NCBI GenBank assembly: GCA_914767715.1
Contig: OU612071.1
Location: forward strand, 10,461,493-10,525,492
Direction: 5' to 3'
DNA from: Membranipora membranacea
Lineage: Eukaryota > Bryozoa > Gymnolaemata > Cheilostomatida > Membraniporidae
Length of the DNA stretch: 64,000 nucleotides
Shown here: positions 10,183 to 60,249 of the stretch, in pieces
Layout: each line of letters begins with the position of its first letter
How positions within the stretch are numbered: the stretch's first letter is position 1
Position numbers and translations under genes: made by a program
Notes under the pieces: model-generated
Databases searched by the model: none
What the model saw: the letters and a program-made list of their open reading frames with translations, nothing else
What the model was told of the DNA's origin: nothing

Positions 10183-10217
<35 letters not shown>

Positions 10218-22791: not shown

Positions 22792-23473
22792 TTAAAGGGA
22801 TAATACACTTCTGATCTCTGTTTGGCAGCCAATGGAGCACAGAAAAATGTATGTACATACAAAAACTCCTTACTTGTAATTCAAAACCCCTTGTTCTGCT
22901 CAAATGTGCATTCTAAATTGTAGTTGTGCATCTCCAACAAGAAATAAGACAACTAACAGAATTGCTTGTGATCTGAAAAAAGCTGATTTTGTGAGCAGTT
23001 GTGTGCTCCTATCTCTTGGTTAGTGTTTCAATTGTCCAGATACTCAAAGTGCGCATGTGCAATAAGGATGACCTTTTGACTTTAGCTTGTTATTTTCTAA
23101 CAGCCCAGCTTAACACTTTTATTACCATAACCGGATATGGTAATAAAAGTGTTAAGCTGGGCTGTTAGAAAATAACAAGCTAAAGTCAAAAGGTCATCCT
23201 TATTGCACATGCGCACTTTGAGTATCTGGACAATTGAAACACTAACCAAGAGATAGGAGCACACAACTGCTCACAAAATCAGCTTTTTTCAGATCACAAG
23301 CAATTCTGTTAGTTGTCTTATTTCTTGTTGGAGATGCACAACTACAATTTAGAATGCACATTTGAGCAGAACAAGGGGTTTTGAATTACAAATAAGGAGT
23401 TTTTGTATGTACATACATTTTTCTGTGCTCCATTGGCTGCCAAACAGAGATCAGAAGTGTATTATCCCTTTAA
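22792..23473. mobile_element. Near-perfect 682-bp palindrome with TTAA ends
   Basis: Arms 22792-23129 and 23136-23473 are inverted copies over 338 bp with one mismatch noticed by eye, around a 6-base loop (accgga). The outermost 4 bases on each side are TTAA (22792-22795 and 23470-23473), so the element proper is 22796-23469 with ends AGGGATAATACAC. This fits a TTAA-target fold-back MITE (piggyBac or Kolobok type). It is non-coding; open frames within it are symmetric by-products. Confidence 0.93.
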
Positions 23474-27700: not shown

Positions 27701-27873
27701 GCAGAGTTATCTACACTGCGGTTCTCTAACACCACTTCGCATCCCTTCTTAGTTCTATGTATTTTCATACCACGCTCAGTTTTGAAACCCCTCCGGCATA
27801 CGCAAATCAATGGCATTTCCGAGTTCGTTATAACAGTAAACCGGGTACCAGTGATTTGTTTAGGTCTCTCATT
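24731..27873 (-). pseudogene. R2/Hero-type LINE with restriction-like endonuclease, main body
   Basis: On the minus strand the element reads: an N-terminal zinc-finger-like segment (CVCRRGFKTERG...HRTKKGC, near 27810-27740); a long RT frame at 27458-25602 (618 codons) with GQFRPISLLN, WLDLANAYGSVPH, GIPMGCAISPLLF and the catalytic FMDD box; a CCHC-like knuckle after the RT (CAECSAKGRLRHILSNC, near 25240-25200); and a restriction-like endonuclease (RPDLIVWS, LILMELTVPWE, KLTRYEDL, near 25000-24850). This order marks the R2/NeSL/Hero group, which uses a REL endonuclease. Zinc finger, RT, knuckle and endonuclease lie in shifting frames, so at least three frameshifts inactivate this copy. The 5' part is separated by the P element and continues at 51565. 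Confidence 0.92.
27866..27873. repeat. 8-bp target-site duplication, left copy
   Basis: CTCTCATT abuts the left end of the giant P element and is repeated exactly at 51565-51572. An 8-bp duplication is the hallmark of P-superfamily insertion. Confidence 0.95.
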
Positions 27874-28367
27874 CATAGGCATCTGGAGTTACAAGCATGT
27901 CCAGTATCAGCCACCCCCTTTCCCTCTCAAGGTGTAGCACACTTGAGTTTCAAACAAAATCACTCACTAAAACTTTTGCACTCTGTTCACTCTAATAAAC
28001 TGTGTCTTTTACAATGGTTTCCAATCCTCTACTTGCTCTTTTACAGGTGCTGTGGATGAAATGTTCTGAAAGATTCCCAATTTCTCTCAGAATCCTGCCA
28101 TTGACGCCATGTTGATAACCCAAACTGTAGCTTTCAAAAAATACTTTTTATAATGAATTTTTCTTCACTGAATCTGTTTTTGTTTATCAAAATCAAAGTT
28201 ATATTTTGTTTCTGTATTTAAAAAATGTCTATTTCATTGTTTTCAATCGTATTTCAATAAACTAAATAATATTTCAAATAAACAAAAGGGACGTCTTCGT
28301 TCATCGACTCTCCCATTGGCTTACTGCTATTAAACCACTATGGCGGTTTCCTTTTGGGAATTCCCAG
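27874..28367. repeat. Left terminal inverted repeat, 494 bp
   Basis: It aligns by eye with the reverse complement of 51071-51564 with six substitutions and two single-base indels. It starts CATAGGCA and ends ggaattcccag. The inner end lies 78 bp before the transposase start codon. Confidence 0.95.
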
Positions 28368-31300
28368 AATAATAACAGTACTGGATTGACTGCATTTTGG
28401 CGGACTCATTACCATATTCATTATCACTTGTATTATGAGGGGAAAATGCCCCCTAAGGCAAAATATGGTCAGAAACTCTGGCAGGCCCAGTCCAGTGGGG
28501 GGAAAACAAGTGCTAGTAAATGGTAAGAGTTTTGGATTGTAGAGTTTGCTTAGTTGGCTAATAAATACAGTGAGAGTATTTCAATTTACCATTTTAGTTG
28601 CTTGTGTGTAAAAATGCTGGTAATTACCAAAGATTCAGAGTGTGTATAACAAAGCAAGTGTGTGTTTCTCACCAACCACTTGTTGAATGTTCATCATAAC
28701 ATTAATTAAATTGTGCCACTCAGGTTGAAGCGTCACTATATGACCCAGCAGCCAGTGCAACTCCAAACCTGTTGTTCAACTCAGAGCGTTTACGCTGACT
28801 TTGGCACTCTATATAAAAATGGGCCAAATATCTCTCCTAAAGCCTTCAATCAGGTAGTCCTGAAGGTGAGTCCTCAGAGTTAATTTTATAAACTGTATAA
28901 AGTTTTTTTTTAATGAATGCTTAGGTGCCTTGCCTACCTAATCTACCAGTTACTGAGTTTTCATTCTACTAGTCGGATACAGTTAGAGTGATGGTTGCTG
29001 TTTTAAAATGCACTGTTTTATGTGTCATAGCTGTTATGACTTGATCGGCTTAATAAAGTTGAATATATTATACAGAAATGCTGGTACAATTCTCAGCCAA
29101 CATATTATGTGTCAGGCAATGTTATGAGCCTACTTGTCTCTAAGGAAGGAAACACCAAAACATGCTATTCTCTGTAGGAATTTCCTGCCGCGTCTATCCA
29201 ACGGAGGTATATTGCGAAGGTGGGTACCAGGCAAGTGTTTGTGGGACTGATGAAAGTGGGAACCAATCCACAAACCAGTGCAGACCACACATACAACCAG
29301 AGCAGGACACAAAGCAATTCCTCCGACCATGGATATGTAAAGGTAAAATTGTCAATCTAAGTGGGGGGTGCAATGGTGGTCTAAAGTATAAAGTGTAAAG
29401 AAATTTCATCAGAGAAAAAAACACACAAAAAAAGGGTGCCAACAAATGGGTTAGGTCTCGTCTGTCGTCTACGTTGTAAATGGATTGTAACAGTAATTCA
29501 CTCTGCCTAACCGGTAAAATTTCAGACAAAAGTAATTCCAATACAAACATACTGATATGTACCATACACCGAAAACTTTTTAATTCCATATAGGGGCAAG
29601 CCAGGCATTTTATTTGACCATCCTCATATAAAACTCATCCCATGCTACTCTCTATTCCAGTCTTGTGTTTTCAGAACATTCAAATTGTTCTGACCAGATT
29701 TTACTATCATCTTCCATTGATCCAGTGTATTTGTTGAGTAGAGTATGCAAGAGAGTGCTTTGACTGTTTACATACAAGGAGCAATCATTCATAAGAATTA
29801 TTTTGTTATTGTAAAATTGTAACTTGTAGTCGGCTACCCACTTGCAATGAAGCGACGGCTCACAGTTTTCAGGACATAATTATGTTTGGCACCATTGTTC
29901 AGTTACCCACAATTACCTAAAGCTGTCGCTCTGGTCTGAGAACTGCAACTGTTGAATTTACTTTTTTTATGTAGCGTTGTCTACCACGCAAAGCACTTGG
30001 AGAAATTACGAATATCAGTCAGCCGACGGCAGCAACACCTCCTCCGCAACAGAAAGCTGAAACAACAGCAAATGACAGTGACTGTTCAAACTCTGCTCCC
30101 AGCAAAGGAGACACCGATCACGGTGAGGGAAGAGGGCATTTATCCATTTGTTAATCATTTGTTAATAGAGCTGAACTGGATTTGAGATAATGCAGTATGA
30201 TACAAACATGTGCACTATTGAACGCCAGATCTCCTTTTTAAACTTGAATAGAATAATGTATATTTTGCTGAGATCCATCGATCCTACTTTTAGGCTATTT
30301 AATCCATGATCTCGAGTAGTGAAGTAGTGAGACTTTGGGTTTATGTCAAGAAACCATGCTAAGCTTTTCAATTATTCATAATATGTTACCATTTTGACCC
30401 TCATCGAACTATGTGTGTGTGAATTGACCAGATTCAGAAAGTGATGATGAAGGTAGAGATGTTGACCAGGGGGATGAGGAGTATGTACCATTCACCTCAG
30501 ACACGAATCAGAATCAGAAGAACAACCTGACGTCACCGAAACCACTCCAGCTCCAGTACCAGCCATCTCTTGGGAGGATCTGCTTCCTGCAGAGCTACGG
30601 CAGGATGAGGAGTGGAAACATTTCTATTAGCAACAGCTAAAGAATTGTGGGAAATATCATAGATGGAGCATAAGGTAAGTCAAGATATACACTGTCTGAC
30701 AAAAATACTGTTGCCCTCGAGAGGACTGTGATTAATATATGACGCTTGTTGCATCCTATGTATTTAGACAATCCTCTTTTTGATACAGACTTAATATTGC
30801 ATAGGGTAGTGATAACATCACTTATTTATCATTTTGACTAAGATGACGCCAGAAATTTGGTTTGACTTAGAATGACAACGCTCAATGTGCACATGGTGAG
30901 ACAATGCATTTTCTTAATGATTTTTTTCAGCGTACTCCAGACATCTCTGGATATGTACACAAGATCTCCACAAGGTTACAGCAACAGGCGGAAGGCTGGT
31001 ACCTTAAAACTTCCACATCCAAAACACTTGCAGAAGATAAGGAACTATGTTTCACAAACTCCAGGGTTAAACATGAAAACCTTCACTGGATGCTGCTGGA
31101 GGCAGACAGGCGCAGACTATCAGCCAGAGGGCGAACTGGCTTCATCGTGTTCGATGAAGTCCAGATTCAGGTTAGTGGAATGCTTGCACCATTTCCTTCC
31201 TTAATACTGCATGATTCTTGCGCCTTGCAAACCACCGTTCTATATGTAAAAATATCACAATGTAGGACAACTTCACCCTTCTGAAAACTAACAACTATGT

Positions 31301-32155
31301 CAGTTAGTTATAGGGGAGAGTAATTTTTTGATAGCAGAACAAAAAAATTAGGCTTTTCGCACAAGCACCAGAAGTTATCATCTCACAGTAAATGGATGAA
31401 CAATAAAGGTGATACACCAAGTGACAACAGGGCCGCCATTAGTGGGCCATGGGGCAAGACTAGTCCGTCATGATATCTGATAACTTTCATTTTCTATCAC
31501 TTTCATCATTTACGACTTCATATTCTCAGGTGTTCCCTTCTGCTATTCCTATATTTTTATGTTGCTTTAGGAGGACCTGCAAGCTGATTGGGATGGGATG
31601 GGATGACAGAATATGGGTCTGCTGATGGCATGTATCGATACAGAAGACAGGGTAAGCAAAGCAATTCAGTGACAGCGCTTTGCATTGAAAGACTTGCAGA
31701 CATTTTTTTTTTCAATTCTGCTTTAGTCTGCATTATTCTGTAATCTCAGCGTGAAGTATGTTGAGTCCCACCTATTAATTTTGTGTCTCATGACCAGTGA
31801 TTATGCTATTGCTAGACATGGTCAATAGCATAATAAATCAAAATCATTTCATTCTAGGCGGATTCAGAAACCTAGCCACACATGTGCTGCAACTTGTGTT
31901 CCTTGGTTACACCGGTTTTAAGTGGCCTGTCGCCTACTTCTGCACCACAGAAGCTCATGCAGCAGAATTGATGCAGATTGTTTGGGAGGTGGTGGACAAG
32001 CTAGACCACTACGATTTTAAGGTGTGTTATTGTTATTTCCTCAATAGAGTTTTCAGTTGTAAGTCTTGCACAAAGGCCAGGAGTGTAGAGACATGGCATT
32101 GGCAGCGTTTCCACAGTCTGTTTTTCTGTTGACATATTGATGGTATTTAGTTGTA

Positions 32156-33075
32156 CCAGAGACTATAGATATAGAGACCTTCCACTTGCGCATAAAATGC
32201 GAATAGCCAATCAGCGTTATTTAACGGTCACGCCCACTTCTGGTTGTATAGTAAGCGCTGCTGCCTTGGTCAGCAATGGGTTTATCAATAAAGTTTCAGG
32301 TTTTTCACCTAAGTTATTTGAGGCAAAATAACCACAATCTTGATGGCAAAACCAGATCAGACAGCAACAAAGTCACTATCAACTTGTTATTGCATTCTTA
32401 GCCAGGGATTTATATAATACAGGCCTGTATTTATGTGAGAAAGTAAGGGGGCTGTGCAGTATAATCCATCATAGTTGCCCGCTGCAATGTAATGATGGCC
32501 TGACATAGGTTAGCTGTTGTGATGAGTTTCACGGACAAAGTTCTCATGTGTGAGGACAAGAAGAGGCCTTCTTTTTGTTTGGATAGCGTCGCTTGTTAAT
32601 ATATGCGCTAAGATAAATATAAAAAAAATTAATCATGGTGACTAGGACCAACCATACACACGCGTTCAAAAGTGAAGTAAGAATGGCATCGGAGTAAAGT
32701 GCATCGTCAGCAGATTCATACTGACAATACAATTCAATACTGACAAAATGTAAAGAAATTACTGCATCAAGACATTACCAAAAGGTTTTATCATTCACCA
32801 AGTATTTTAATTTTTTGATTCCTATATTTTATATAAAGGTCACCTCTTAGATTTCATTTGTCCCAGTTGATATTATTGAAAGTTTTGTGGGAATGTACTT
32901 ATAAAATAAACAACTAAAGCATTCACCTTGTCAATTTTTGATGGTAAATTCATAGCACTGGGTACGCTTACCTCCAAGCGATTACCACCAGAAAAGGAGC
33001 CTAATTTTCAATGTGTTTGCATCGGTTATATCAAAATCATGGCAAGTGGAAGGTCTCATTATCTATAGTCTCTGG
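32156..33075. mobile_element. MITE in transposase intron, CCAGAGACTATAG ends
   Basis: Imperfect TIRs (CCAGAGACTATAGAT and then GAGACCTTCCACTTGC shared by both ends) are flanked by TTGTA at 32151-32155 and 33076-33080, an exact 5-bp duplication. The 920-bp interior is non-coding. It lies in the intron between exons 31858-32021 and 33392-33541. Confidence 0.85.
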
Positions 33076-33299
33076 TTGTACTCCTTCAACAATATGCACC
33101 GAAAGATGAAAATAATATAATGATGATCATAGTTCTGACATTGTTAGGTGCAAAAAATGATGTAAATAGTTAGCAATACTCTTTCCCTTAGTTCGCATTG
33201 CACAGGAGTAGACATTTCCCAATAATCAATAAATTATATCACTTGTCTCCAATCAGGGAAGTCCCTGCTCCAATTCATTAACGCAGTTTTGATACATGC

Positions 33300-33320
33300 C
33301 CCCCCCCCCCCCCCACCCCG
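33300..33320. repeat. Poly-C tract
   Basis: A run of about 15 C followed by acccc lies in a transposase intron. Similar tracts occur at about 18680 and, on the other strand, at about 55469 and 57036. Confidence 0.9.
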
Positions 33321-35521
33321 GGTGTACAGGTTTATACACCGGGAGCCACTACTACCATTCGCTACGGCTAAGACTATAGTTTATCACACAGGTAGAAGGG
33401 ATGCTCATGGATGGAGGAGCAAATAATCGAAAATTCCTCAGACTACATGATGGTGACAGGGAGCTCAGGTCACAGGAGGCCTATATAATAACAAACCCAA
33501 ACAGGCCATCACAGGAGGTAGCTGCTGTGATGGATCCATGTGTAAGTGTTTCAAGGTGATTGTTACGTTGTTGATGAGATGGCAATGATTTAACTTGATG
33601 TTATGAAAGAGAAATTTCCCTGTGATAGTATGTTGATGATATCAGCTTGATAGTGCATAGAGGTTATACAGTGTAGTTGATCATGTTTAATATTGATGGG
33701 TATAAAATTTATTGAATATTGTTCAGAATATTATTATATATATAATATTAAGCAAATGTCACTTTACTTTGACTCACTGCCGCTAGCATTTCGGCTACAC
33801 GGTACAAAAGCATAAACTGTAATGCAGGAGAAGATATTGGTCTGTACATGATATTTGATCAGGGCGATGGGGCCTTGAAATGGAAATAGATTTCAGAGTG
33901 ACCGAAAAATTTTGACACAACCAGGCAATGGGTCTATTGAATATGGTTCGAATGCTACGATTGGTCAAAGGTTTAAAAATCAGTAAGCAACCTGTTTGTG
34001 ATATCTTAATAGTGTTAGTCAGAATGTGGAACCAGTAGAAAACATAATTGATATTATCAATTGTTAAAATTTCAGCATGGGATAAAAAAATCAGAAATTC
34101 TATGCTAAACTCACGTAACACGCCCAATGCAAAGAGGAGACTGAGATGGGGAGCAGACATCTGCGTCTGGGACCACTGGGAAGACGCATATAGATGGGAT
34201 GACGAATCCAACAGCATGAGATTACACTATAAGCTCACTAATGAGCATATATTCGTTACTGACAGCGGTAAGATGCGTAACCACCTCGCCTTCCAAACTA
34301 TGGACAAGGATATGCTGCATCTTATAAAGGTATTCCAGTATGTTTTCAGATAATAGACATAGCTGTTTCTTCAATCTCCTAGAAGCGTCATTTACTTGCT
34401 GCAAACAAAACAACAATACAGGTGGTTAAATACGAAAATTTGCCGTCCTTGCCTAAAAGCTGACTTAGCTATGATATTACCACACTTATGCAATTCCCCA
34501 CTAAAATTACAGAAATACCAATGCCATTATCGAATATGGTAGAACTGTTGTTGAGATGACAGGAATTGAGTGGCATAGTATGAGTTTATCAGATAACATG
34601 CGGTGGACTTTCTGTGCAACCAATGCAGTTCTTCATATGGCCCACCAAAATGGCGGCTTATTTATATATGAGGCACTTTGATGCATGAAATGTCAAGGAG
34701 TCTTCTACCAATGTCAAACCGAGCACTATTACCCTCTAAACTGTATTATGTTTTAAAGATGTATCAGCAGGAGTCCAAGAGGACAGACCTAAATCTGACC
34801 ATACAGGGATTACAAAACATGGCCGTGCTGACGGAGAATCTACTCTCGACAGTAACTTATGTCTCGGTAGATGATGCTCGGTTCGCGGAAAACTTGCAGG
34901 CTCTGCAATTTTTTACAGATTGGTATAACCATACCAAAGGAGACCCCAAGTATGTCTGATTTCACCGTATTAAAAAAATATAGAATGAGGTTAAAGATCC
35001 AAAGACGTTGCTAAACATCGGTATGAAAACATTTTGGGACATATTGATCATAACATTATTTATATCATCCTATCTAATAGAGAGGCGACACAATATCAAT
35101 AACATCATAGCTGTACCCCTGTACGATGACAGCTGGGCTGAAATTCTCAAGACTCAATTATTCCTGCAGTCACATTAATATAACCACTATCATAACTTTT
35201 GTTAGGTCCTTCATTACTCAAGAGGCGTATGATGACATGTGCTCTACAGTACATGGATTTCAGTTTGTTACAAAAAGAATCCTGAAGTCACATCCTGGAT
35301 CACGAGTCGAGGCTTCCATTATGAACAGTGATGTTATTGAAAACATGTTTTCCTCACAGAGAGGCCACTGCAACGGAGCCAACACAAATCCGTCCATCCT
35401 TGCATACAGCAAGGCTATAAAAACGATCATCATGACAACTGAGCTGCAGCGCTCCTCAAAAAGAAATGCCAGCTCAACCGCCTCAGTAGGGGGGGGCACA
35501 TCCCTACCACATTCTTGCTAA

Positions 35522-35605
35522 AAAGAGCTTTAGATCAAAAGTGTAACCAAGGTAGGCTGACGCTAAGACTATGTATTTAGCATTATTTATTATTATATTT
35601 GTTAT
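35522..35605. other. Convergent 84-bp gap between transposase and helicase genes
   Basis: Stops of the two genes face each other. On the minus strand an AATAAA-type polyadenylation signal is readable at about 35589, suitable for the helicase gene. No clear signal for the transposase is seen before the helicase stop. Confidence 0.55.
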
Positions 35606-35975
35606 TTAGATGTGATTAATATTCACATACCTTTGTACTTTGTTGCACCGAATACACGCCCATTCAATAGCTGCTAGCTCCTGTTGAGTTATGCCCTTCT
35701 TCATTGTAATGCAGACAACATGGTACCAGTCCTGACATTTCTCGCATTCGATCCAGTGAAGTGTATCCGGTAACTTCATCTTTCCTCTTCTCACCTTGCA
35801 GTATTGAGCTTTGCAGTCATCGTTCTCAGTTTCACTGGCTTTCCTTCTCTGCAACATCAACAGGATTATAGGGTCAAATTTTGCAGTATTTTTTGGCATC
35901 CACCAACACAAGTATATCTTGTTGTCCCGTTGGCTGAATGTTATATACGGAATCTCTATATATAGATATAGATAT

Positions 35976-36013
<38 letters not shown>

Positions 36014-37950
36014 ATATCTATTTTTATAGCAGCTTAATAAGGTATCATGTTATTTCTGATTGATTTCTGCGGAATTATATAAACAAGATATGCTTCTACT
36101 GTCTATTTTTCTCTGTAAAATCTGCAGGATTGCAAGGTCAAGCATGGCAGTATTTTTTGTCCCCCATCGAAGCAGATATGTCTTGTGGGATGTAATGTTC
36201 TATTACTTTTTATTATAGCAGCGTAAATAGATAATGCATTGTAAGAATTTCTTCCAATGAATCTTTGCGAAGTTAACATCAGCATTTTTTGAATTCCTTT
36301 TTTTGTGAACCAAAAATCTGTAATTAAATACAAATTACCTATGTATTTTGAAAAACTTACCTTACGAGTACTTGCAGACCTTTTCTCTGTTGACGTCTGC
36401 TCCATAGCGGATATCTTGCTGCGATGAGACTGCTTCCTCTGTTGTTGTAGTGCGTTGAGCATTCTCTTCCGAAATTCATTATTTCCCACTGGCAGGTAGC
36501 GCTGTAGCAGAAGCCTCCACACTTCTTCCAGGAGAATCGGGTCAGGTTGTCCTGGGAAGAGTGAACCCAGTTTTTCCCGCAGGCACACATCATTGAGCAG
36601 ATAGTTATAGGTTATATCGTAAATGACAGGACCCACTGTCATTCCGGTCTCAAGGGTCTCACGCCTGTCTCTAGCTTCATTCAGCTGAAGAAACAGCTCG
36701 TATGCTGAGTCTGTAATGTGTGTGCGAGTCTCCTTGATGTCTCCTCTCGCCGTCTCTGACACTGTGTCAGGGTACCTGCCTGACCTCGCCTCACTTTCTG
36801 AGGTTTTAAGCACAGTTTCAAATGCATGCTTCACACGCTTGCACAGTTTGTATGTGGCTGTTGTGGTTTTTCCTCTAAGTAATCTGAGGCGACGAGACAT
36901 CTGTTTATTGCACTTGAACACTGTGCGACCGCCAATCTTACGTATTACACCTCTGGCTGCATCAGAGGTTTGAAGAGATGTTGAGGGTTGCGCAGAAGCA
37001 GAAGTTCTGGCGAGACGTGAAGATCTTTCTGCCTGACGGTCAGCCTCAGTGTTCAGATACCTGCTGCACATTGACGAGAACATGACACGCAGGTAATAGT
37101 GATACTGATCGGGAATGTTCTCTTCCACCATCTTTGCTGTAAGTTCAGTGGTTTTAAACTTAAATATTGTCTCTGCAAACGAACTGAATATGACACCATT
37201 AGCTACATGTTCTGAACATTCCCAGCTAGAATTTCTAAATGGAAACACTCCAGCTGGTCCTCCATGAACTTGTGAATAAGTTTAAGGTTGATATTGTCCT
37301 TCAAGAAGAGGATGTCTGAGTTAATGCTATTCTGTTTATCCGTAACTGGGGACAGATATGCCTGAGAAAGGAGCAGATCAGCTACTGCCATGCTGTTGGG
37401 AGAAGCTGACTGGACTGATGGTACTACTGCTGCTTCGGTGGGAGGAACTCTTTCCGAGGCCATCATCAGCTCATCCTCACTCTCCGTCATGCAAAAGTCA
37501 AATTCATCTTCCGCTATGGAAAAATCGTGGCATCTACAGCATGTGAGGTCTCGAATAGGGTCCATTGCCGGCTCTTCTAGAGCTTTGAGAACTGCCTTAG
37601 AAGGTGGTATCACTAGGCTCTTTCTGAAGTTGATTACCTGAAGATACTGAGGGTTGCTCGCCCTGCTAATCGCAACTGGCAGTAACCCAGGATACCACAT
37701 GTCTTCGGCATGTACCTCAACAGCGGCAGCAGTCATACCTTGTGACTTATGAACGGTGGTGGCATAGCACAGAGTCACCGGGAACTGAGTTCGACTGATC
37801 TCCACATCTTGTCTGCTGTCATATCTGTCAAAAGTGCGATGATGCAACATTATCATATAATATTCCACATTTTTCCACAAGCCTCAATCATAGCAGTAGT
37901 GTTACATCATTGGTCTATCAATACCATAGCGTTATCACCATAGAGTTATT

Positions 37951-37986
<36 letters not shown>

Positions 37987-40900: not shown

Positions 40901-43900
40901 ATATCCCTAACCACATGTCTGCAAACCCCTAGCGCACAAGACAGTCCAGATCATAAACTAGAGATAAATAAAGGCGTTGCAAGCAACTGAGAATGATCTT
41001 GTAGCCTGTGCAGGCTCTGTTGGGTGTCTTGTCAGTACCTGGTTTGCTTCCAGAAGGGGTTTTCAAGTCTGTGCTTCTCTGTTTTAAAAAATCTTCTGTT
41101 TCAGTTGAGCATTCTCCTTTACTCAACTCTCGTACTGCTCTCCACAATCTTGCATCAGATGATCGATGTATCTAAAATAAAAAGCAACTTCATCATTGTG
41201 ATTGCAACAGCAATAACAGAAATCAGAGATACAAATACCTACAATTCACTATTTAGCAAGAAACTTTTTTTTTAGAATATGAAACAGCGATATGCCGATA
41301 TCCATCGCTTTCAAACAAAGACATTTTGACCAAAAATAAAAATATTGCCCGATTTGCCTGGTAAGAAAACATGAACAACTAACATGTGAAAATGACCTGA
41401 CAATGCAAAGCGTGTATACAATTTTTCTGCTTTCACGGGGGATCTGTTTTAGCTATCATCACCGAGATCCCACAGACTAACTTACCGTTTCTAAAGTGAC
41501 AGTGTGAGGCACATATTTCTTGAACATCGAGCTTGTTATAGCTGGCTTGCCAATGTCTCCTGCAACCTCATTCCCAACAGGTGGAAGTTGATGGAAGTCA
41601 CCACAAAATATGCTCTGGACCTCACCCATAACGCTGTCACTACTCTTGACAAACTGGAGAACTCTGTTGACTATGTTAAGGGTGTGGCTGGAAATCATGC
41701 TGATTTCATCGATGATCAACAGTTTGACCTTTGACAGCCTACAAAAAAAACAGGAACAGACTTAGTGCGGGTGTCTCCGTTGATATCGGGATGATATAAA
41801 ATAACTTCGTACAAGCAGTAATATACCTACCAGAAAAAAATTACTCAAACAAAAAACATGTGCTCAATAAATCCTGAAACATTTGGTGTCTGAGATGTCC
41901 ATTGTCTGCGGCTTGCATTAAGACAAGGATTAGTCGTAATAATATAATTTTATATAGTCAGAGTGGGCCCCCCATGAGTTCATTTATCTCCCACCAATGT
42001 TACTGCCGGTCAGTGGGGCCTGCACCTGATCTGATTCCAACCACAGCCCGCTACATGGGTACCAATATAACACACTGGTACCCATGCAAACTCCCTACCG
42101 CACTTTGCTTCTCAGTGGTCTAGACGTCTAGAAGAAGAATTCCCACCTAACACAGCAGCAAGCAATACCTATGGCGAAGAAAGCCGCGTTGAAATTTTAT
42201 TGAGGGCGTAACATTACCTTTTGCGTCTGGTTACATAGTATTCATCTTCTCCTGCATATAACTTGATCACTTGTTCAGCTGTGAGCCTGAAAAATATTAA
42301 GTAGTCAATAATTCTGACGTTTTTGACTGAAACATGAAAAACTGTCACATCCTAGCAATATATGCAACAGTTCATACAATATTTTTGTCGATGGCTAATG
42401 AACCTTTGGTACATGTATGTGGCACATAGTATTGGGAATTAAAATTTCTGCTTTACATGCTAGAAAAGATGTAGAGTTGCCATTTCAACTTGCTCGCGAC
42501 ATTGGGCTAGAGCCATTTCCTACCTATCGAAATCTTGCCTTTGCCAAGCCATTCATTTTTGCTAAGTTTAATTTGATTTGTGTCATTCACTGCAAAGATA
42601 TTTATAAAAAATGTTTTGCCTTATTAGAGTACAACCTGTTACCAGTTACTCCATCATCGGGTCAATAAGACATCAAGAGTACTATTTATATTTTCAGGGC
42701 CTGGATGAAACTTAGGAATTTTTGAATTTTCTACAATGCAATACGCTATGATTGTTGCAATATTATGAAGTAATTCAGGCATAAATTGCACAGGTACCAT
42801 AACTTCATAAGGTCTTCATTTGCCGCTTTTCAATTTCACTGACTTCCCTTTTTGCAGGTACTGTCAGTAATTGAGCTAAATTTTCTGTAGAAGTATATAT
42901 ATATATTTATAGCTTGCTATCCATATTCACTATTCTATTTTCCCCATATTCAGCAAATAAATCTTAGTATTATAGTGTCAAGCAACAATATTATCGAGTT
43001 TTGATCCATGCATGTAATGAGGGGTCAGAAACGGATATATTTCTAAAGCGAAAATCAATTTCAAGTCCTGAAGACAGGAGGCCTAAAATCATAAAATTTC
43101 ACTAAAATCTCACTCCTCCAGTTAGTACCATGCCTCCTCTATATGGTGAAAGCATAAACTAATAAAATACCTCAAAAACAAGGCACAGAGGGCTCAATTT
43201 AAAAAGGGCACTTTTTGCCCAAAAAGAACCTTCCAGAGGTCACTGCATCTCGACATGAAACATTTGAGAGTTTTCAACCGTGAAAATAACTATTAGACAT
43301 GATCACCCATACAATATTAAATAGCCATATATCATGTTAATCCTTAAATTGGATTGAGTTTTGTCTGTAATTGTATAACTGTCAACATAATGGCGCAGGT
43401 ATTGCAGCCTTTTATTTATTCTACTGTTGCTCATAATCACCCTTAATTGCCACCCAAAAGACGTGAAGAGCTTAGAAAACGATGACTACAAATCTATCGT
43501 CGATATCAAAAATTCTCTAAATAAGCACTATATTAAAAATATATGGAGCTCACAGTATAACCAGCTAATAAAAGAAATAGACCCTGGATTATTACGATCT
43601 AGGAAGCGGGCAAAAGAGCCGGAGTTCGTGTCCGTCATTCAACCTGCAACAGTAAAGTCCCCCTACCAGCAATAGTACTCACCAACGCTCAATCTATATA
43701 TCGTAAACTACACGAACTGCATGTACTATTGAAAACAAAGCGGCTGCACAATCAATTTCAGATCATCTGTATAACTGAATCCTGGTTGAAACCTGAAATT
43801 GGTTAAAGTACAACTGAATTGGATGGTTACGATCAATTTCGTAACAACAGGGATGCCGATGCAAGTGGAAAAAGTCAAGGTATCCTTGTATACATAGACC

Positions 43901-46900
43901 GGAAATTGGCCACAAACAATCAAGTATTATTCAATTATACAGACAAAAACTGTGAAATTCTAACTGGCTACCAAAATTTACATCAATTATCTCTCTATAT
44001 CATGCTACACTCCATTCACTGGACAATCTCGACTGAAACATGATGCTACCAACACAGCTAAATTTATCTCTTCTCATGTTCAACAGATGGAAACCAAATA
44101 TCCTAACACATGTGTTCTAGTCATGGGTGACTTCAATCAACTACCCCTTCGTCTAAGTTGATATTATCAAACTGTAACTAGACCAACCTGTTGATTAAAA
44201 ACACTTGATAAATGCTACACCAGAATCAAGGATGCATATTGTCACTGCAACCGGCTAGCTCAACTCGGAGACTCAGACCATCATATCATGCTCCTGATAC
44301 CTTCATATTCATATTAAGAACCACTGTCAAAATCTAAACCAACTTTTATCAGAAGAATATACTCAGACGAAAACTGTGACAATTTAAAAGCATGCTTCGA
44401 TACTACTGAATGGGACAATTTAATAACTCCTGATGATAATATAGATACTCAAGATGTGATCACGGATTATATTAAATTTTGTACTGATATATGCCTTCTT
44501 GTTAAAACTGTTAAAAATTATGCCAACCATAAACCATGGATGACTAGAGAGCTCTTAGATTTAATTGATGCAAAGCAACAAGCCCATTAGGACGGAAAAA
44601 AACCTATCACAAATATAAAAAGAAACTATCCGAAGGAAAGAAAAAATCTCGGGCAAAATACTCCCACAAAATCCAAGAACACCTGGCGGATGACCCAGCC
44701 AATGCCTGGAATGACATAAAAAAAATCACTGGATTACCACCAAAAAACTCTAAACAGCCTACTGACACTAGCTTCAGCCCAGACGACCTAAATTCTTTCT
44801 TCGCTAGATTTGAAAAGCCAGAAACTATCTCTCCTACTCCAGCTGACCCAAACCCAAGTGCACCCACATTGAATGTAAATGATTATGCTGTCGTCAAACA
44901 GTTAAATAGTCTGAACTCAGGAAAAGGTGCCGGCCCTGATGGACTTATCCCTAAGGTTATCAAGCTGTGCGCCGATCAACTAGCTAGCTCATTACAAGAC
45001 TATTAAAAAATTCTCCAGATTCAGAAACAACAAGAAAATATGGAAAACTGCAACCATCAAACCTCTACCTAAAATCACCAAACCTACTCGCATTTTAGAC
45101 CTATAGCACTCACTAGCTAAAACCATGGAACGCCTACTTAAAATATACATAACTGAGAATACACATCTAGATAAGTATTAGTTCGCCTACAGAGCACGCC
45201 GCTCCACCCAGGATGCTGTACTATGCCTCACAACTACAATCAATAACTTTATTGATCAAAACTCATCATACTACGCGCACGCTGCCTCTTCTTAGACTTT
45301 TCATCGGCCTTCAACACTGTAGATATCAAACATTTACTACCAGACTGCTGAAACATCTCGATCCACACGTAATAAATTGGGTAGCAAGCTTTTTAACCTG
45401 CAGAACACAAAGAACAATAGCCAACAATATCATATCTAAATCTATAACAACATATACAGGAACACAACAAGGCTCTGTACTCAGTCCTCTATAGTTCTCT
45501 ATATATAATAATCATCTTGTCTCTGAGTGCTGCAGTAACGTCACCACTCTCAAATATGCAGACGACACCTAATAATTATCTGCAGGCTTATTTCAAAAAG
45601 AATAACAGAGTGTCAACATTGTGCAAACAACTAGATCTATCTTTAAATCCATCCAAAACTCAAGAAATGCTTTTGTGTACCAAAAGAGATAAACCAGACC
45701 AGATAAAATACAACTCTGCAATTAGATGGTATCGAAATTGAATTATGTGATAATGATAAGTACCTGGGAGTTTTAATTGATAATAAATAAACAAAATAAA
45801 TTACGTTTTGAGTCTCATATTGATAATCTTGTTAAGCCTCTCAGAGGATGCATACGTTAAAACCTTTTGTCACTTTAGTACCAAACTTCTCTCACCAATG
45901 ATATTTAAAAGTGTTATTATTTCTATTCTCACATACTGTCTGCCTATTTTGTATACATCGACTGAGAAAGTTTTTTGAAGACGCTAACCATCTAAATATT
46001 CAAAACATAAGTGACCTTGATAGCATTAAAGATAATCGAACTAAAAACCTGATACTCAACTATGTACAGGATGATGAACATTTTATTAACAAATTTTTAC
46101 CACAGCTACCATCAGGAAGATATAGGACAATAAAATACAAGTCATCTTGGGGAAAAGTAGTTTTTTACGCACCATAAGATAAGATTTAATGGTTACACAA
46201 CATCAATGATGAGGTAAAACTAGTGTGGGATGAAGGCTAATGCGAATACTGTTCGGACAAAGCTGTTAAAAAAAGCGTACAGTTCGCGATTTGCTACAAA
46301 TAAAATAGTTCCTATGGCTCACATAACAGTGGTTTAAAATATGATCTGGGTCTCTATAAAAATCTGCTGCAGTTCTAAAAATGCGTTGAGTGACTAGTTC
46401 CTTAATATCACAGTTGAATTTGGCACGGGTAAAAGGTTTGAGCAGCATTTTATGTTCACCTTCGGTACATGAATAAAACCATAGCTCAGCATTGTACATA
46501 AGAATAGGTAAAATCAGAGACTGGATAAGATGCTGACACTGCTCATAGGACGGATTAAATGATTTAAATTTGAAACGAGAATAAAATCTGCTTTTAAGTT
46601 TCTTATAAATAGCATCAGAGTTATTATGCCATTTGAGATCATCGCTAAAAATAGTACCCAGGTATTTAAAATCACATACCTTTTCGATCTCTTGAATACC
46701 AATAAAAACAGAAGAAGTCACAGTGTGGGTTCTGCTAAAATAAAGGACCATCTCTTTGGTTTTATCTGTGTTTAAAATGAGATTGCTCTCTATACACCAG
46801 GTAGAAAAGTTATTTATAGCATCAAAATAAGACTGATCTGATTCCTTATGGTTTAAAAGGCCTACAACAGCCATGTCATCAGCATATTTTAAAATGTGAA

Positions 46901-49648
46901 CATTTGGATGTTGTGATCTGATAGCGTCAGTATAGATGGAAAATAAAAGAGGGGATAAAACACAGCCTTGTGGACATCCTGTACTGGATTCAAGATTCGA
47001 TGACTTATGGTCTCCTATACGCACACGTTGGGTACGGTTACTAAGAAAAGATACAATAAGTTTGGTAAAAATGACAGGGACCCCTTGATTAGATAGACGC
47101 TCAGCCAATAAATGTGGTTAAATGGTGTTAAAAGCAGAGGAAAAATCGACAAAAAGCACTCTTGCATATGATTTTATCCGTAACAATATTTTTTAAATTT
47201 AATCCACGACAGCTGTCAGTTCCCCCCCACCCAGCTGAACACGATGCAATTATAATTAAATCGGTTGGCTGAATGAAAGGGCAATGAAAGTGACCCACAA
47301 TTCCGGGATTGCTAGGCCTAATCCTATTGTCTTATTCATAAAATATAAATACTATAAATGTAATGTTCTATCAATAATTAGTTAAATTTCATCAAGATTA
47401 TCCATCCAGGCTTGTTTACTGTCCCTGTGTTGATAAATCTAAGATCTGTGGTGTGTAAGAAACCCTACTATGACTAATTAGTTAAATTTTATTATGATTT
47501 TCCAGGCATGTTTACTGTCCCTATGTTGATAAATCTAAGATCTGTGGTATGGAACAAACCCTGGCATAAATAAACATTTTTATAGACCTAAATTTCCATT
47601 GCAATATTTTAATTGCAAACAATAACAAACTCTTCTTATCAAGCATCTTTAGAACCCAAATTTGATACACTGCACTACATGATTTCACTGCACTAAATCC
47701 AGAGATGGTCTGATAGTGAAGGACTCAATTCATTTTGTTTTTAACTAAGTTTTCGGCAATTTTTCATCACTACGTCTCCAGCAGCACAACATGATTGCTA
47801 ACGCGAATAAATCATATGCTATGAACATCTGCAACAAGTATGCCAAGGTCCAGAATGAACAAACCACCAGCTTGACCCTTGGCGGTCAGGACATACCACA
47901 AGTCAACACGACCAAGTTCCTCGGAGTAAAAATTAATGATCGCCTTAGCTTCAAGCAGCATGTGAACCAAATCGGGTGCCGGGTCAGACCCAAGACGTTC
48001 GTACTGCTCAAACTCAAGCGGGCTGGAATCCCACAAAACATCCTCACCAAATACTACGTGACCTGCATACAACCTGTAATGATGTATGCGAGTCCAGTGT
48101 GGTATCCGATGACAACAGTAGACGCACTTGAGCGACTAACGAGCTTAGAAAATCTCTCTCTGAAAATCATCTGCCCGGGCAACAATAGCTATGAAGAGCT
48201 GTCTGCTCTTAACATCATCTCGCTCGCCACATTTCTAGATAAATCATGTACTGATTGCGCTAGAAAAGTCGGAGACCCAGCACACTGCAACAACAAACTG
48301 CTACAGCCAATCCCTTCTACTCTACGCCGATCAGCCAGACTAAAACAATACCAGAGAGACACCAAGTGTAGCTCTGCTCTGAGATCAAGCACAGTACTAA
48401 TGAAGTATAGCAATGCCGGCTGTATTAATTATAAAGAATAAACCAAACTGATCAGTTTTTATATTTCACTTTTTATACCCAGGATGCCTCCTCTTTTTCT
48501 ACAAAAACCTATAAGGGTCGCTGCTAATTTTTAGTCTGCTACCAATGGTTAGTAATAATGATAATAATAATAATACAACATGTGAAATCTGGACACAAAG
48601 TATTGTAAAATCAGAATTATTCTGGTACTTCTCTGACATTATATATCATTCTGAATTATACGAATAATATTATATATATCAATAGCTACTTATACTCAGC
48701 TGCCCTAACATAAGCTGCAACCACTAAATAGCCTCTCCTTGGATGGTGTAATCTAGGTAAATTTACATTTGATCATTTAGTCGTAATATATTTCACAATC
48801 CAGGAATAACCTGTCTTTATTTTTAATTTGCGTAATTAGATTTAGAATAATTTGCACTAATTTTGAGCAATTGTTATCTAATGTTTAGTCTTACAATTGT
48901 TTTACAGCTGTGCTGTTCTCAAGAATAATTTGTTTTATATGACTCATTTTATATAAAAATTCTCAAAACCTTTACAAAAATTTTATATGTTAACCTTATT
49001 ATTTTAGTTTCACGGTCTTATCGTGGATAGTGAGAATCCAATAAAAGAATTTATGCCACATAGCATCAGTAAAACTAAAGCACTTCAATTAATCCCGAGA
49101 GCCGCAACAATAAATATAATTTATATGTTTATGGTCTTATTTAACTGATGCTGTGAAGGTAATGGTGATGATATTGACATAAGTTGTGAACTCTTTTATT
49201 TTTATGGATTAGATCTTCCAGGCCCATCTTGTTTGAGTGTGACTAGGGCCTCATTCTAATACAGCTGCAGATCAGAGATAGTGTAATGTGATATAAATTG
49301 GTGAGTCTTCAACTTTTGAAAAAGCTATGCGTAGGGAAACCTCATTCACTATGCCTTATGGGTTGCAATTTTGAGGTGATGTCTCCTAGGCATGTCACAA
49401 AAGGTCCTATATAGTTTGTTTTAATGAGGCCACCGGCTCGGGATTTTATCTCAAATGGATTGTGTAACAGTAAACTAACCTCCCATCCATTAGTCCGAAG
49501 GCACGGTGCAGAGTCTCAGCTCTGATGGCATTCAGGCCCTCCGATAGAATCAGACTACTTAGCCCTGTGGCTCCACAGACAACTATACTTTCTGCACTGA
49601 ACTGTAGGCTGTTGATTATAGTTTTTAAAGTCCTCGTCTTGCCGGTAC
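35606..49648 (-). CDS. PIF1-family helicase with C-terminal PHD finger (5' end not found)
   Basis: Minus-strand exons in order: 49648-49481 (Walker A GTGKTRTLKTI), 42286-42218, 41738-41486 (Walker B LLIIDEISM; GDFHQLPPVG), 41171-41039, 40526-40378 (LVVLYGQRINAEMYN), 39930 to about 39750 (LKVGVPIMLLKNL, NGLRGTVV), 37824-36361 (TVHKSQGMT and VAISRAS, helicase motifs V/VI, then a long Lys/Arg/Ser-rich region) and 35848-35606 (PHD: ECEKCQDWYHVVC...WACIRC, then stop). Phases match across the first introns, joining ...LMDGR to LTAEQ to LSKVKLL. PIF1 helicases unwind DNA 5'-3' in replication and recombination; PHD fingers usually read histone tails. Oddities: a frame change near 37203-37248, a possible GC donor near 39750, and a 7.2-kb intron (42287-49480) filled with LINEs. 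Exons upstream of the Walker A exon were not recognised. Confidence 0.88.
35955..36021. repeat. (TA)n microsatellite with tatctatatct flanks
   Basis: About 20 TA units are bordered by tatagatatagatatagata and its near complement, so the whole tract is a palindrome. It lies in the helicase intron before the PHD exon. Confidence 0.95.
37937..37996. repeat. (TA)n hairpin with 14-bp arms
   Basis: accatagagttatt at 37937-37950 is inverted at 37983-37996, with a TA repeat between. It is intronic to the helicase gene. Confidence 0.9.
38315..38412 (+). repeat. tRNA-like SINE head
   Basis: An A-box-like segment (tagctcagtgtgtagcggtctg) and a B box (gggttcgaaccc) are spaced as in a Pol III promoter, followed by a T-run. 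No tRNA acceptor stem can be paired around them, so it is a SINE rather than a tRNA gene. It lies in a helicase intron. Confidence 0.65.
39125..39480. repeat. Two diverged direct repeats of about 180 bp
   Basis: The blocks aaaatacctgcaggtgat...atggctatgaatgctc...ccatgcaaaaccagattttgtt (from about 39128) and aaaatacctgcaagtgat...atggctctaagtgctcc...ccatgcgcaaccagattgggtt (from about 39307) follow each other. This is an old tandem duplication in a helicase intron. Confidence 0.75.
43000..43340 (-). repeat. Fragment of the TTAA element seen at 19665-20661
   Basis: The sequence is the reverse complement of about 19680-19985 with scattered differences. Landmarks are gaggggtcagaaa, tgcctcctctatatggtgaaagc, aaaaagggc and agacatgatcacccat. 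It ends atatatcatg before TTAA, so the terminal target site is preserved on that side; the other side is not recognisable. Confidence 0.75.
43390..46185 (+). pseudogene. Degenerate LINE (AP endonuclease + RT) in helicase intron
   Basis: In order on the plus strand: LTNAQSIYRKLHEL and ICITESWLKPEI (endonuclease start, about 43680-43800), GILVYIDRKL (about 43880), VMGDFNQ (about 44125), GKGAGPDGLIPKVIK (RT, about 44925), RSTQDAVLCLTT and LDFSSAFNTVD (about 45200-45320), GTQQGSVLSPL (about 45470), YADDT (about 45555), NPSKTQEMLL (about 45650), and a C-terminal LPSGRYRTIKYK segment (about 46100). Many stops and frameshifts separate these. The gene order and spacing match a non-LTR element with an AP endonuclease, possibly I/Nimb-like. 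Confidence 0.88.
46240..47170 (-). pseudogene. 5'-truncated LINE RT in helicase intron
   Basis: A 280-codon minus-strand frame (47108-46266) carries STGCPQGCVLSPLLFSIYTD, ILKYADDMAVV (catalytic YADD), LILNTDKTKEM and YLGTIFSDDLKW, then the thumb. A VDFSSAFNT motif lies just upstream at about 47150, interrupted by a stop. The element begins abruptly at about 47170, as expected of 5' truncation. It meets the previous LINE tail to tail near 46190-46260, so two separate insertions are implied. Confidence 0.9.
47376..47570. repeat. Two direct repeats, 100-bp period
   Basis: The block aattagttaaattt...ggcttgtttactgtccct...gttgataaatctaagatctgtgg starts at 47376 and again at 47476 with few differences. 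It lies in the helicase intron. Confidence 0.85.
47780..48445 (+). pseudogene. LINE RT C-terminal fragment
   Basis: A plus-strand frame (47791-48441) has the typical end of a LINE ORF2: NTTKFLGVKINDRLSFKQHV, LLKLKRAGIP, YYVTCIQPVMMYASPVWYP, LERLTSLENLSLKIICP. The catalytic RT core is missing, so it is strongly 5'-truncated. The frame itself is intact over 217 codons, which suggests it is younger than the LINE at 43390-46185. It lies within the helicase intron. Confidence 0.85.
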
Positions 49649-49675
49649 CTGTGAGAATCAAAGCATGGACGTTAA

Positions 49676-49925
49676 AGGAGTAGGAGATAGCTCAGATGGT
49701 TAGAGTGCCTTCCTCTGAGCGCACAAGGGTTGAAGGTGGTGGGTTCGATCCCTGCCACCGCCTGCTGGGAGTTCATGCCACATGTGTGCTCCGACCTGCC
49801 TGCAAATTGAGGGCAACATGGGCACAGTTACTGCAGCCCAGCCCTTAAGTCAACCCCTATTACATCGTCCGGTTTCCGGACTAGACGCATGATAAACACT
49901 TACGATATTAACCCTTTCAAAGTCA
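49676..49925 (+). repeat. tRNA-derived SINE
   Basis: The head has an A box (tagctcagatggttagagtg) and a B box (ggttcgatccc) at near-canonical spacing, and is followed by a tail (about 49775-49925) with no tRNA character. Stem pairing for a full tRNA is not evident. It lies immediately upstream of the helicase Walker A exon in gene orientation. Confidence 0.75.
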
Positions 49926-50359
49926 AACCTACTCATGTAAGAGTGGTTTTCTACTCCAATAAAGCTATAACTTAGTCAAAGGAGGGAATTTCATACCATT
50001 ATTTAATGGGCCATCCTACCAAATTTCACTGTGCAAAAATAGTTCTCCAACAAAAAATTACATCATCAGCCAGTGTCAGCTTCTCAGTTGTTTACCAGAG
50101 TCAAATCTGGCATTCATGTTTATGTTTACACATTCATCTTGTCACGGCAAGTCAATCTGCAAAGCTAAGTTGGCTTGGAATTCCTGACATGCAAACACAA
50201 CAATTGGGGAGCCTGATAAATGCGATATATCATAAAACTATGGAAGCACGGTTGAAACTACTGCGTTGCCCATACTGCAAAATAACCTAAATGTGTGGCG
50301 ACTTGATTTTCTTTAGGTCTTTACTTTCAACCTATGAATAATAGGAATACAATTGTGTA

Positions 50360-50640
50360 GATACAGCATACAGTGGTGCGCATACTGTAACATATAAATC
50401 AGATAATCCCTCATGGATACGACCCTGGCTGCTAAAGATTAGAAAACAGCGGTACTTCAAATAATCGTTAATCACAAGAGTGTAGGGCTTAGCTGATCCT
50501 AGCTAATTCTAGCTGATCCCTGTAAAAAGAACCTGGATTATGACGCATATCGTACGATACCACTGCATATCACATAGGTCTTCAGCTAGAAACCATGAGT
50601 GAAGCTTTGTTTGAGGCCTTCTCTGGCAGGATTGAGGTCT
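50360..50640. repeat. Diverged copy of dispersed repeat A inside the P element
   Basis: Landmarks acagtggtgcgcatac (about 50371), aggtcttcagctagaaaccatgag (about 50577) and gaggccttctct are shared with copies at 51833 and 53808. The middle is replaced by other sequence. Confidence 0.6.
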
Positions 50641-50672
50641 TAACTTTTAACCTATACAACTATATATATATA

Positions 50673-50777
50673 ATGGCCGCATATCCTAATATAACACTTG
50701 AGATCACCAATGGTAGCAGTGCACTGGAAGAAAACATACCTGCTGAGCCTGTTAGAAAAAAGCTGTGTCCAGATTTG
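50673..50777 (+). CDS. Possible first coding exon of a third gene in the P element
   Basis: An ATG-started 35-codon stretch (MAAYPNITLEIT... ending RKKLCPDL) is followed directly by a strong donor, gtgagt. Its amino acid composition is protein-like rather than repeat-like. It lies only 0.8 kb from the right end and points outward, so no complete gene can follow inside the element. It could be a captured or orphaned exon, or chance. I do not recognise it. Confidence 0.25.
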
Positions 50778-50814
50778 GTGAGTTGTACTGCCTGGTCTTG
50801 CTTCTGATCCATGA

Positions 50815-51048
50815 TGAATTATATCAAGATAAGCACAGCTGAACAGTCTGAACTGAAGTGAATGGCACAAGCTCCAGCAATATTATGCTGAACATGAATT
50901 ATATCAAGATAAGCACGTCTGAAAAGTCTGAACTGAAGATTTGAAATGAAAGACATATGAATTATATCAAGATAAGCATGTCTGAACAGTCTGAACTGAA
51001 GATTTGAAGTGAATGGCACAAGCTCCAGCAATATTATGCTGAACATAA
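50815..51048. repeat. Subterminal tandem repeats next to the right TIR
   Basis: The block gaattatatcaagataagca followed by tctgaacagtctgaactgaag occurs at about 50815, 50896 and 50959 (spacing near 80 and 63 bp). The longer unit with ggcacaagctccagcaatattatgctgaacat occurs twice. It sits just inside the right TIR and is not matched near the left TIR. Confidence 0.85.
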
Positions 51049-51070
51049 CTACTAACACTGACACGGAGTA

Positions 51071-51564
51071 CTGGGAATTCCCAAAAGGAAACCGCCATAG
51101 TGGTTTAATAGCAGTAAGCCAATGGGAGAGTCGACGAACGAAGACGTCCCTTTTGTTTATTTGAAATATTATTTAGTTTATTGAAATACGATTGAAAACA
51201 ATGAAATAGACATTTTTTAAATACAGAAACAAAATATAACTTTGATTTTGATAAACAAAAACAGATTCAGTGAAGAAAAATTCATTATAAAAGTATTTTT
51301 TGAAAGCTTCAGTTTGGGTTATCAACATGGCGTCAATGGCAGGATTCTGAGAGAAATTGGGAATCTTTCAGAACATTTTCATCCACAGCACCTGTAAAAG
51401 AGCAAGTAGAGGATTGAAAACCATTGTAAAAGACACAGCTTATTAGAGTGAACAGAGTGCAAAAGTTTTAGTGAGTGATTTTGTTTGAAACTCAAGTGTG
51501 CTACACCTTGAGAGGGAAAGGGGGTGGTTGATACTGGACATGCTTGTAACTCCAGGTGCCTATG
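51071..51564. repeat. Right terminal inverted repeat, 494 bp
   Basis: It is the inverted partner of 27874-28367 and has the same length. Its outer end is GCCTATG, at 51564. Confidence 0.95.
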
Positions 51565-51572
51565 CTCTCATT
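51565..51572. repeat. 8-bp target-site duplication, right copy
   Basis: CTCTCATT is identical to 27866-27873. Confidence 0.95.
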
Positions 51573-60186: not shown

Positions 60187-60249
60187 GAAAAAGGAGATTT
60201 ACCTAAAGTTAGCAATTTCTTTGTGTTTGACTTCCTTGATAGACATGGC

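Follow-up and report, generated by a model that had tools for sequence, protein, structure and literature searches.

Large P-superfamily transposons of two diverged families in Membranipora membranacea pair their transposase gene with a convergent PIF1-PHD helicase gene

The P element of Drosophila is 2.9 kb long and carries 31-bp terminal inverted repeats (TIRs) and one transposase gene, whose product has an N-terminal THAP domain. Its transposition involves 8-bp target-site duplications (TSDs) and 17-nt 3′ extensions, with DNA repair as the final stage (outlined in PMC7776569). Galileo, a P-superfamily transposon of Drosophila, has long TIRs and a 7-bp TSD, and the accessible part of its description names no second gene (PMC3573991). 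Outside the P superfamily, KolobokH and Kolobok-1_CCri, of fungi and a red alga, are DDE transposons that combine a Kolobok transposase with an accessory RecQ helicase, encoded on the complementary strand in CCri (PMC9587614), and AcademH is a DDE transposon with a helicase (PMC10045372), an Academ transposase and a TSD of 9-10 bp. In the RAG-like elements (RAGL/Transib), a transposase of still another family is convergent with an accessory kelch-PHD protein without helicase, and the TSD is 5 bp (PMC7204232). Here we describe a 23.7-kb transposon found in a window of 64,000 nucleotides (C7:10461493-10525492) of the 339-Mb, 18-contig genome assembly of the bryozoan Membranipora membranacea (G000; C-labels are its contigs). 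This element is very probably a decayed copy of an autonomous cut-and-paste P-superfamily transposon, whose lineage keeps a convergent PIF1-PHD helicase gene.

The element spans window positions 27874-51564 (23,691 bp) and is delimited by inverted ends and an 8-bp TSD. Self-comparison of the window aligned the left TIR (27874-28367, + strand, starting with CATAGGCATCTGGAG) with the right TIR (51071-51564, − strand), giving 494-bp repeats with 98.4% identity over 495 columns. The TSD CTCTCATT is exact at 27866-27873 and 51565-51572; the + strand of the window has no third occurrence of it, and its reverse complement occurs once in the window. Both the 494-bp TIRs and the exact 8-bp duplication had been put forward in an original prediction made from the letters of the window, and both were borne out. 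Between the ends lie a P-type transposase gene with 12 exons (28446-35546, + strand), which is broken in the window copy, and a PIF1-PHD helicase gene with eight exons (35606-50812, − strand). The convergent arrangement of the two genes had been correctly predicted; the distance of 84 bp given for them had not, and is 59 bp (35547-35605) in our refined gene models.

In order to obtain the transposase, splice sites were compared with other copies of the element, and the copy on contig C5 yielded 12 exons with GT-AG introns and an open frame of 727 aa. The corresponding window exons are at 28446-28522, 28724-28865, 29178-29342, 29975-30122, 30432-30674, 30931-31170, 31571-31651, 31858-32021, 33392-33541, 34076-34329, 34759-34922 and 35206-35546; six of the 12 differ in length from those of C5, and the joined window frame contains 23 stops. 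This model replaced an earlier one of 800 aa, in which alignment with relatives had exposed two wrong pieces, and the Pfam scan performed with the first model was redone with the second. The 727-aa protein matches PF21787, the P/TNP-type RNase H domain (E 9.7e-15, 55.5 bits, cut-off 24.6), and weakly the GTP-binding insertion domain PF21788 (E 0.0073, 17.1 bits, below the cut-off of 24.8), and the scan returned no THAP match at E<=1. Using residues 240-760 of the 800-aa model as query, 64 relatives were retrieved at E<=0.001, among them mollusc, coral and hemichordate proteins; the best-scoring one is 37% identical, and several bear the source name 'Transposable element P transposase-like RNase H'. 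Alignment with 11 of the 64 located the residues D334, D433, D473-x-x-H476 (DxxH 473-476) and E660, in agreement with the P-superfamily signature D, D, [C/D](2)H, E, as given in PMC8230255. The spliced P-type transposase of the original prediction was thus confirmed through PF21787 on the model of a sister copy, the window copy itself being broken. Two of the three relatives scanned (P0004 and P0007, both P-type transposases) have an RFX-type DNA-binding domain above cut-off; the N-terminus of the window-family transposase resembles this domain by eye, and Pfam gives no RFX match there.

The helicase gene, likewise, is open in the C5 copy, where its eight exons form a frame of 883 aa. In the window these exons are at 50740-50812, 49480-49648, 41486-41738, 41039-41171, 40378-40526, 39764-39930, 36361-37824 and 35606-35848 on the − strand. 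The protein matches PF05970 (PIF1, 2.9e-21) and Pif1_2B (PF21530, 6.8e-12), both above cut-off. The final exon (35606-35848) encodes a PHD-like zinc finger, recognized from its sequence in four copies, its ligand spacing and a PF00628 match that remains below the Pfam cut-off in this family (E 9.6e-4). With this qualification of the PHD finger, the spliced PIF1-PHD gene predicted on the strand opposite to the transposase was found. Part of the 23.7 kb is due to nested non-LTR retrotransposon sequence in the 7.7-kb helicase intron 2 (41739-49479), as judged from an RVT_1 match (46266-47117, E 1.1e-15), colinearity and indels; the content of this intron is largely common to the sister copies. 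The last helicase intron holds, by BLAST placement, a single unit of a ~345-bp tandem repeat (35999-36249), of which sister copies have three, six and seven units.

The genome was then searched with the TIR of this family (family 1), scoring the best 40 of 205 first-look candidates, and at least 64 matches were obtained. Four copies have both long TIRs, namely the window copy (23,691 bp), C5:26108597-26133289 (24,693 bp), C10:4503826-4528590 (24,765 bp) and C10:4340537-4385474 (44,938 bp, enlarged by insertion), and they are colinear and ~98% identical across most of their length. Exact 8-bp TSDs (CTCTCATT, GTAGCAGT and CTAATACT) flank three of them. The 44.9-kb copy has no TSD, and on both of its sides the sequence to the left of the 24.8-kb copy is found again, inverted on one side; the assembly, a segmental duplication or aberrant transposition involving sister chromatids could be responsible. 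Shorter relatives comprise deletion derivatives of 4,684 bp and 638 bp, both with TSDs, and ten short loci. Six of the latter (104-514 bp) have both termini and identical 8-bp flanks, four of the six being near-perfect palindromes of 104-106 bp (miniature inverted-repeat transposable elements, MITEs, of ~105 bp); one further locus has termini but no TSD, and three are without a terminus-pattern match at both ends. Overall, an 8-bp TSD accompanies 11 of the 13 family-1 copies with both termini, as well as both copies of the second family described below.

An additional copy on C6, ~5% diverged, is colinear with the C5 copy and has matches to each of the 12 transposase exons, to exon 6 only in part. 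It lacks C5 positions 8411-15192, a stretch that contains helicase exons 4-7 and the greater part of exons 3 and 8; its right end, close to the end of the contig, is lost as well. This diverged copy retains helicase exon 2, and the helicase thus predates the recent burst of family 1. The original prediction had proposed to check whether the helicase gene travels with the transposase in copies with these TIRs; in this genome, all four copies read with both long TIRs carry it, and C6 keeps exon 2 after its internal deletion.

Helicase matches at 39% identity led to a second family, located in the regions C7:6141000-6160999 and C1:31652100-31672099. In both regions a PIF1-PHD gene lies on the strand opposite to that of the transposase exons, in the same convergent layout as family 1. 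The C7 element is 15,822 bp long, with 549-bp TIRs that agree at every position but one and the TSD GGGAGCAG; the C1 element is 15,863 bp long, with the TSD GTTCTGGG and a right end that was set by eye owing to a short duplication. The two copies are 99% identical to each other, and their TIR tips are like those of family 1. The family-2 transposase was judged from exon-scale matches: at E<=1e-3, the family-1 transposase matched the C7 copy in seven such segments (47-70% identity) and the C1 copy in eight (36-68% identity), whereas its N-terminus, as far as residue 224 for C7 and 186 for C1, had no match. The C7 helicase, with exon ends picked by homology and the GT-AG rule, has an open frame of 875 aa. 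At a helicase identity of ~38% between the families (exon 7), all seven introns are found at the same positions and in the same phases, and all six helicase motifs that were sought are present in both. PF05970 and PF21530 are above cut-off in family 2, and the PHD finger of the C7 copy is at the Pfam cut-off (24.0 of 24). An extra helicase exon hidden in the 7.7-kb intron of family 1 had been considered and was dropped, since family 2 has the same eight exons.

The association of the two genes was also counted over the genome, in a helicase search (best 51 of 187 candidates scored) and a transposase search (best 61 of 295), so that the counts are lower bounds. The helicase matches were grouped into 17 loci, 13 of which have a convergent transposase of the same clade within 28 kb; two of the loci, on C3, share a single transposase match, and the C6 partner lies 15.7 kb off in the same element. 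The other four are fragmentary matches without a partner, and so are two more loci (C7:27.04 and 27.48 Mb) obtained with a family-2 exon as query (57 of 57 candidates scored). Under a stricter measure, 10 of 19 helicase loci are within 8 kb of a listed transposase match. Starting from the transposase, the helicase is present at 12 of 17 clade loci, a number that excludes three P loci at 31-33% identity, counted as another family. The preservation of the pair in a second, diverged family points to an old two-gene lineage and not to a one-off capture, and with 13 of 17 helicase loci paired it supports the two-gene lineage of giant P transposons that the original prediction had proposed. That the two genes occur together in both of these diverged families was directly observed, as were the anatomy of the elements, their TSDs, the open frames of the C5 copy and the conserved motifs.

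These elements share with the Drosophila P element and THAP9 the transposase domain family, the signature residues, the 8-bp TSD and the cut-and-paste anatomy (PMC7776569). They differ from the P element in their size of 16-25 kb, their TIRs of 494-549 bp, the second gene and the lack of a detected THAP domain; the latter is typical of Drosophila P and of THAP9, and was not used as defining the P superfamily. The original prediction was right about the 8-bp duplications of P elements and too strong in describing them as transposons with short TIRs and only a transposase, given the long TIRs reported for Galileo (PMC3573991). The Kolobok superfamily has TTAA as its target. A Kolobok identity was rejected on account of the 8-bp TSDs, none of which is TTAA, and of the P-type RNase H domain, and an Academ identity was considered and rejected as well. 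Among the papers listed in a literature search, none was, to judge by title and abstract opening, about a P-superfamily transposon that carries a PIF1 gene; the search covered neither Repbase nor the majority of subscription papers, and such elements may be catalogued there. Other DDE transposons are known to have accessory helicases, and long TIRs are known in the P superfamily; what would be new against these sources is the lineage of P transposons with PIF1-PHD.

In the standard account, the donor gaps left by P-element excision are refilled from a sister template, and an early stop of copying leads to internal deletions. On this basis we tentatively assign to the helicase a role in long-tract copying that would restore the full-length donor element after excision, a role we consider quite possible and still somewhat below an even chance. 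The transposase would cut and insert the element, leaving the 8-bp duplications, and the donor gap would be filled by the host from the sister chromatid; with the PIF1 helicase acting at the D-loop, DNA polymerase delta would be able to displace the strand over 16-25 kb, so that a full element is restored instead of a deletion derivative, and the PHD finger would keep the complex on suitable chromatin. Ordinary P elements manage without a helicase, and the donor-restoration role is favoured because a transposon of 16-25 kb would need long copying more than one of 3 kb. In a review, PIF1 is described as needed in break-induced replication, a process in which polymerase delta synthesizes long tracts by extending a D-loop that migrates (PMC8998199). 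The same review attributes several fork functions to PIF1 proteins, and the helicase could instead counter host silencing or work at host replication forks and not in repair; the sequence holds no pointer to such a role, which we regard as quite improbable. We infer both the step at which the helicase would act and the ligand of the PHD finger, and the whole explanation, joining the two-gene P-superfamily lineage with the copying role and a PHD finger at chromatin, comes only slightly short of being an even bet.

Several observations weigh against this explanation. The helicase frame is open in only one of the four long family-1 copies, as compared with the transposase frame in three of four (C5 and both C10 copies): in the window helicase, exon 7 is shifted by a 1-bp deletion and the donor site after exon 6 is lost, and the C10 helicases share a 13-bp loss in exon 7, one of them being also without half of exon 4. 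A strict requirement for the helicase in cis is disfavoured by this count. Of the two family-2 copies read, that on C7 has an open helicase; in that on C1, seven exons are equal in length to those of C7 and the frame is open up to the eighth (PHD) exon, which is broken by a 1-bp insertion. In the PHD finger of the C5 copy, an Arg replaces a probable zinc Cys, which is retained in the window and C10 copies. Deletion derivatives and MITEs are present despite the helicase, and five of the 17 clade transposase loci are without the helicase, namely the 4.7-kb derivative on C1 and four loci judged solely from the absence of a match in the two helicase searches (C8:27.16, C4:22.83, C4:23.47 and C5:19.20 Mb); of these, the C8:27.16 Mb transposase, 97% identical to that of family 1, may be a real exception to the pairing. 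Moreover, both family-2 copies read have an in-frame TAG in transposase exon 10 (C7:6147734-6147994 and C1:31658917-31659177). Two TAG are listed in all five family-2-like loci with an exon-10 match, one of the two in the C7 copy being a splice-acceptor codon. The same exon-10 TAG in copies with different TSDs suggests movement in trans, so the copies read probably moved in trans after the stop mutation, or else the two decayed together.

Selection, estimated as pN/pS by Nei-Gojobori counts, gave values below 1 for both genes, a point in favour of the explanation. The transposase has values of 0.12-0.32 in five of six pairs and 0.82 in the closest pair, which differs by eight changes, and C5 against C6 gives 0.19; the helicase has 0.39-0.61 in six of six pairs, a weaker constraint than that of the transposase. 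On the other side, the divergence of exons is near that of the rest of the element (1.60 vs. 1.63%, 0.76 vs. 0.81% and 0.73 vs. 0.84%), and in C6 the exons are the more diverged part (3.97 vs. 3.07%). Both the broken frames, in three of four long family-1 copies and one of two family-2 copies, and this weaker constraint, with exons hardly less diverged than the rest of the element, would be expected if the PIF1-PHD gene were a passive cargo, captured by an ancestor from the host or from another element and playing no part in transposition. A passive gene is harder to reconcile with the persistence of the pair, its orientation and its intron positions in family 2 at ~38% helicase identity, with the open C7 helicase, which has the motifs sought and a PHD finger at the Pfam cut-off, and with the helicase relatives found in other records. 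We therefore consider passive cargo unlikely. An open frame in one copy per family, together with the motifs and the ~38% identity, is a stronger sign of helicase upkeep than pN/pS.

With regard to these relatives, the C-terminal region of the family-1 helicase alone had none at E<=0.001 among the best 7990 candidates scored. A profile of the C-terminus built from both families retrieved 17 proteins, again among the best 7990 candidates scored, seven of them strong (P0065-P0071, E 2.1e-164 to 2.6e-95) and 33-57% identical to the two families. Six of the seven start 5-18 residues ahead of the start point of exon 7. No helicase relatives were found in viral contigs. AlphaFold2 predicted the C-terminal region of seven relatives as mostly helical with low confidence (mean pLDDT 62.9), and these predicted structures had no PDB match at E<=0.001.

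The PHD finger suggested a further alternative, in which the second gene is an accessory of the RAG2 type: the PHD finger would target the transpososome to marked chromatin and the helicase would open the ends or the target, repair being secondary. RAG1L and RAG2L are convergent too, and most invertebrate RAG2L end in a PHD finger, according to PMC7204232. The family-2 PHD finger matches the zinc-ligand spacing of the invertebrate RAG2L PHDs in the same source, a post hoc observation in one family that is only suggestive; the family-1 PHD is one residue off this spacing, and its C5 copy is without one Cys. The transposase belongs to a different superfamily, the TSD is 8 and not 5 bp, and the Pfam families displayed for each helicase, 25 of 27, include no kelch domain. 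A RAG-like identity of the elements was rejected from the TSD and from a PIF1-PHD partner without kelch among those families, and an accessory role like that of RAG2 seems unlikely, to nearly the same degree as passive cargo.

PIF1 sequences are also found elsewhere in this genome, including frames of 1892-2222 aa with PIF1 matches, which we take to be Helitrons. Helitrons have a Rep (HUH) domain fused to PIF1 and lack TIRs and TSDs. A PIF1 gene might have come to lie within a P element through a Helitron-type element or through chance nesting. No Rep domain, however, is among the Pfam families displayed for the two helicases; a Helitron identity was rejected for this reason and for the presence of TIRs and TSDs, and both families have the pair in the same conserved geometry, so that such an origin, already contradicted by family 2, has a negligible probability.

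Thirty-one further PIF1 loci, one more having been excluded as adjoining a family-1 locus, were compared with the positions of other P-type transposases. Six (C7:10.555, C3:34.671, C7:10.834, C5:27.07, C5:27.88 and C7:21.70 Mb) lie within 8 kb of one, with a mean of 0.21 expected, and none of 20,000 circular shifts of the PIF1 loci reached six; in this test all loci were taken from search matches alone, the transposase list was hand-trimmed to one row per locus, the length of C3 was assumed, some pairs are probably copies of one family, and three of the six PIF1 matches came from a P-transposon helicase query. Three of the pairs are divergent and three on the same strand. They are possibly more two-gene P families, a lead to which we give lighter weight than to family 2. 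A bolder and distinctly unlikely proposal would be that a P clade escaped the size limit of cut-and-paste by means of its own PIF1 and spread through transposase-triggered copying of 16-25 kb units resembling break-induced replication, guided to chromatin by the PHD finger in parallel to RAG2, and that PIF1 joined P transposases several times in this genome, in convergent, divergent and tandem layouts. In the same genome, a PIF1 2B-domain match is repeated at C3:8625365 and twelve other sites, in frames of 316-335 aa (one of 565), probably as a separate PIF1-bearing repeat family.

The surroundings of the element hold other features. An RVT_1 frame of 636 aa (window 25602-27512, − strand, E 1.1e-22) lies ~350 bp from the left TSD, and at 22792-23473 there is a near-perfect palindrome of 682 bp (99.4%), perhaps a foldback element or a MITE. 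A tyrosinase-domain frame of 569 aa (PF00264, E 1.4e-38) at 58489-60198 on the − strand is possibly a host gene. At the end of contig C6 (C6:29389419-29389538), a run of the 7-base G-rich unit GGGGTTC was seen, which may be a subtelomeric satellite or a telomere of unusual sequence.

Few eukaryotic transposons have been studied as well as P elements, which are usually seen as small, one-gene elements whose donor repair is left to the host. A lineage with its own repair-type helicase would make two questions testable, namely what limits the size of cut-and-paste elements and by which route they gain copies. With P joining Kolobok and Academ as DDE superfamilies that have accessory helicases, a recurrent recruitment of helicases is suggested, and the way in which the RAG1-RAG2 pair arose can be compared with this convergent PHD-bearing partner.

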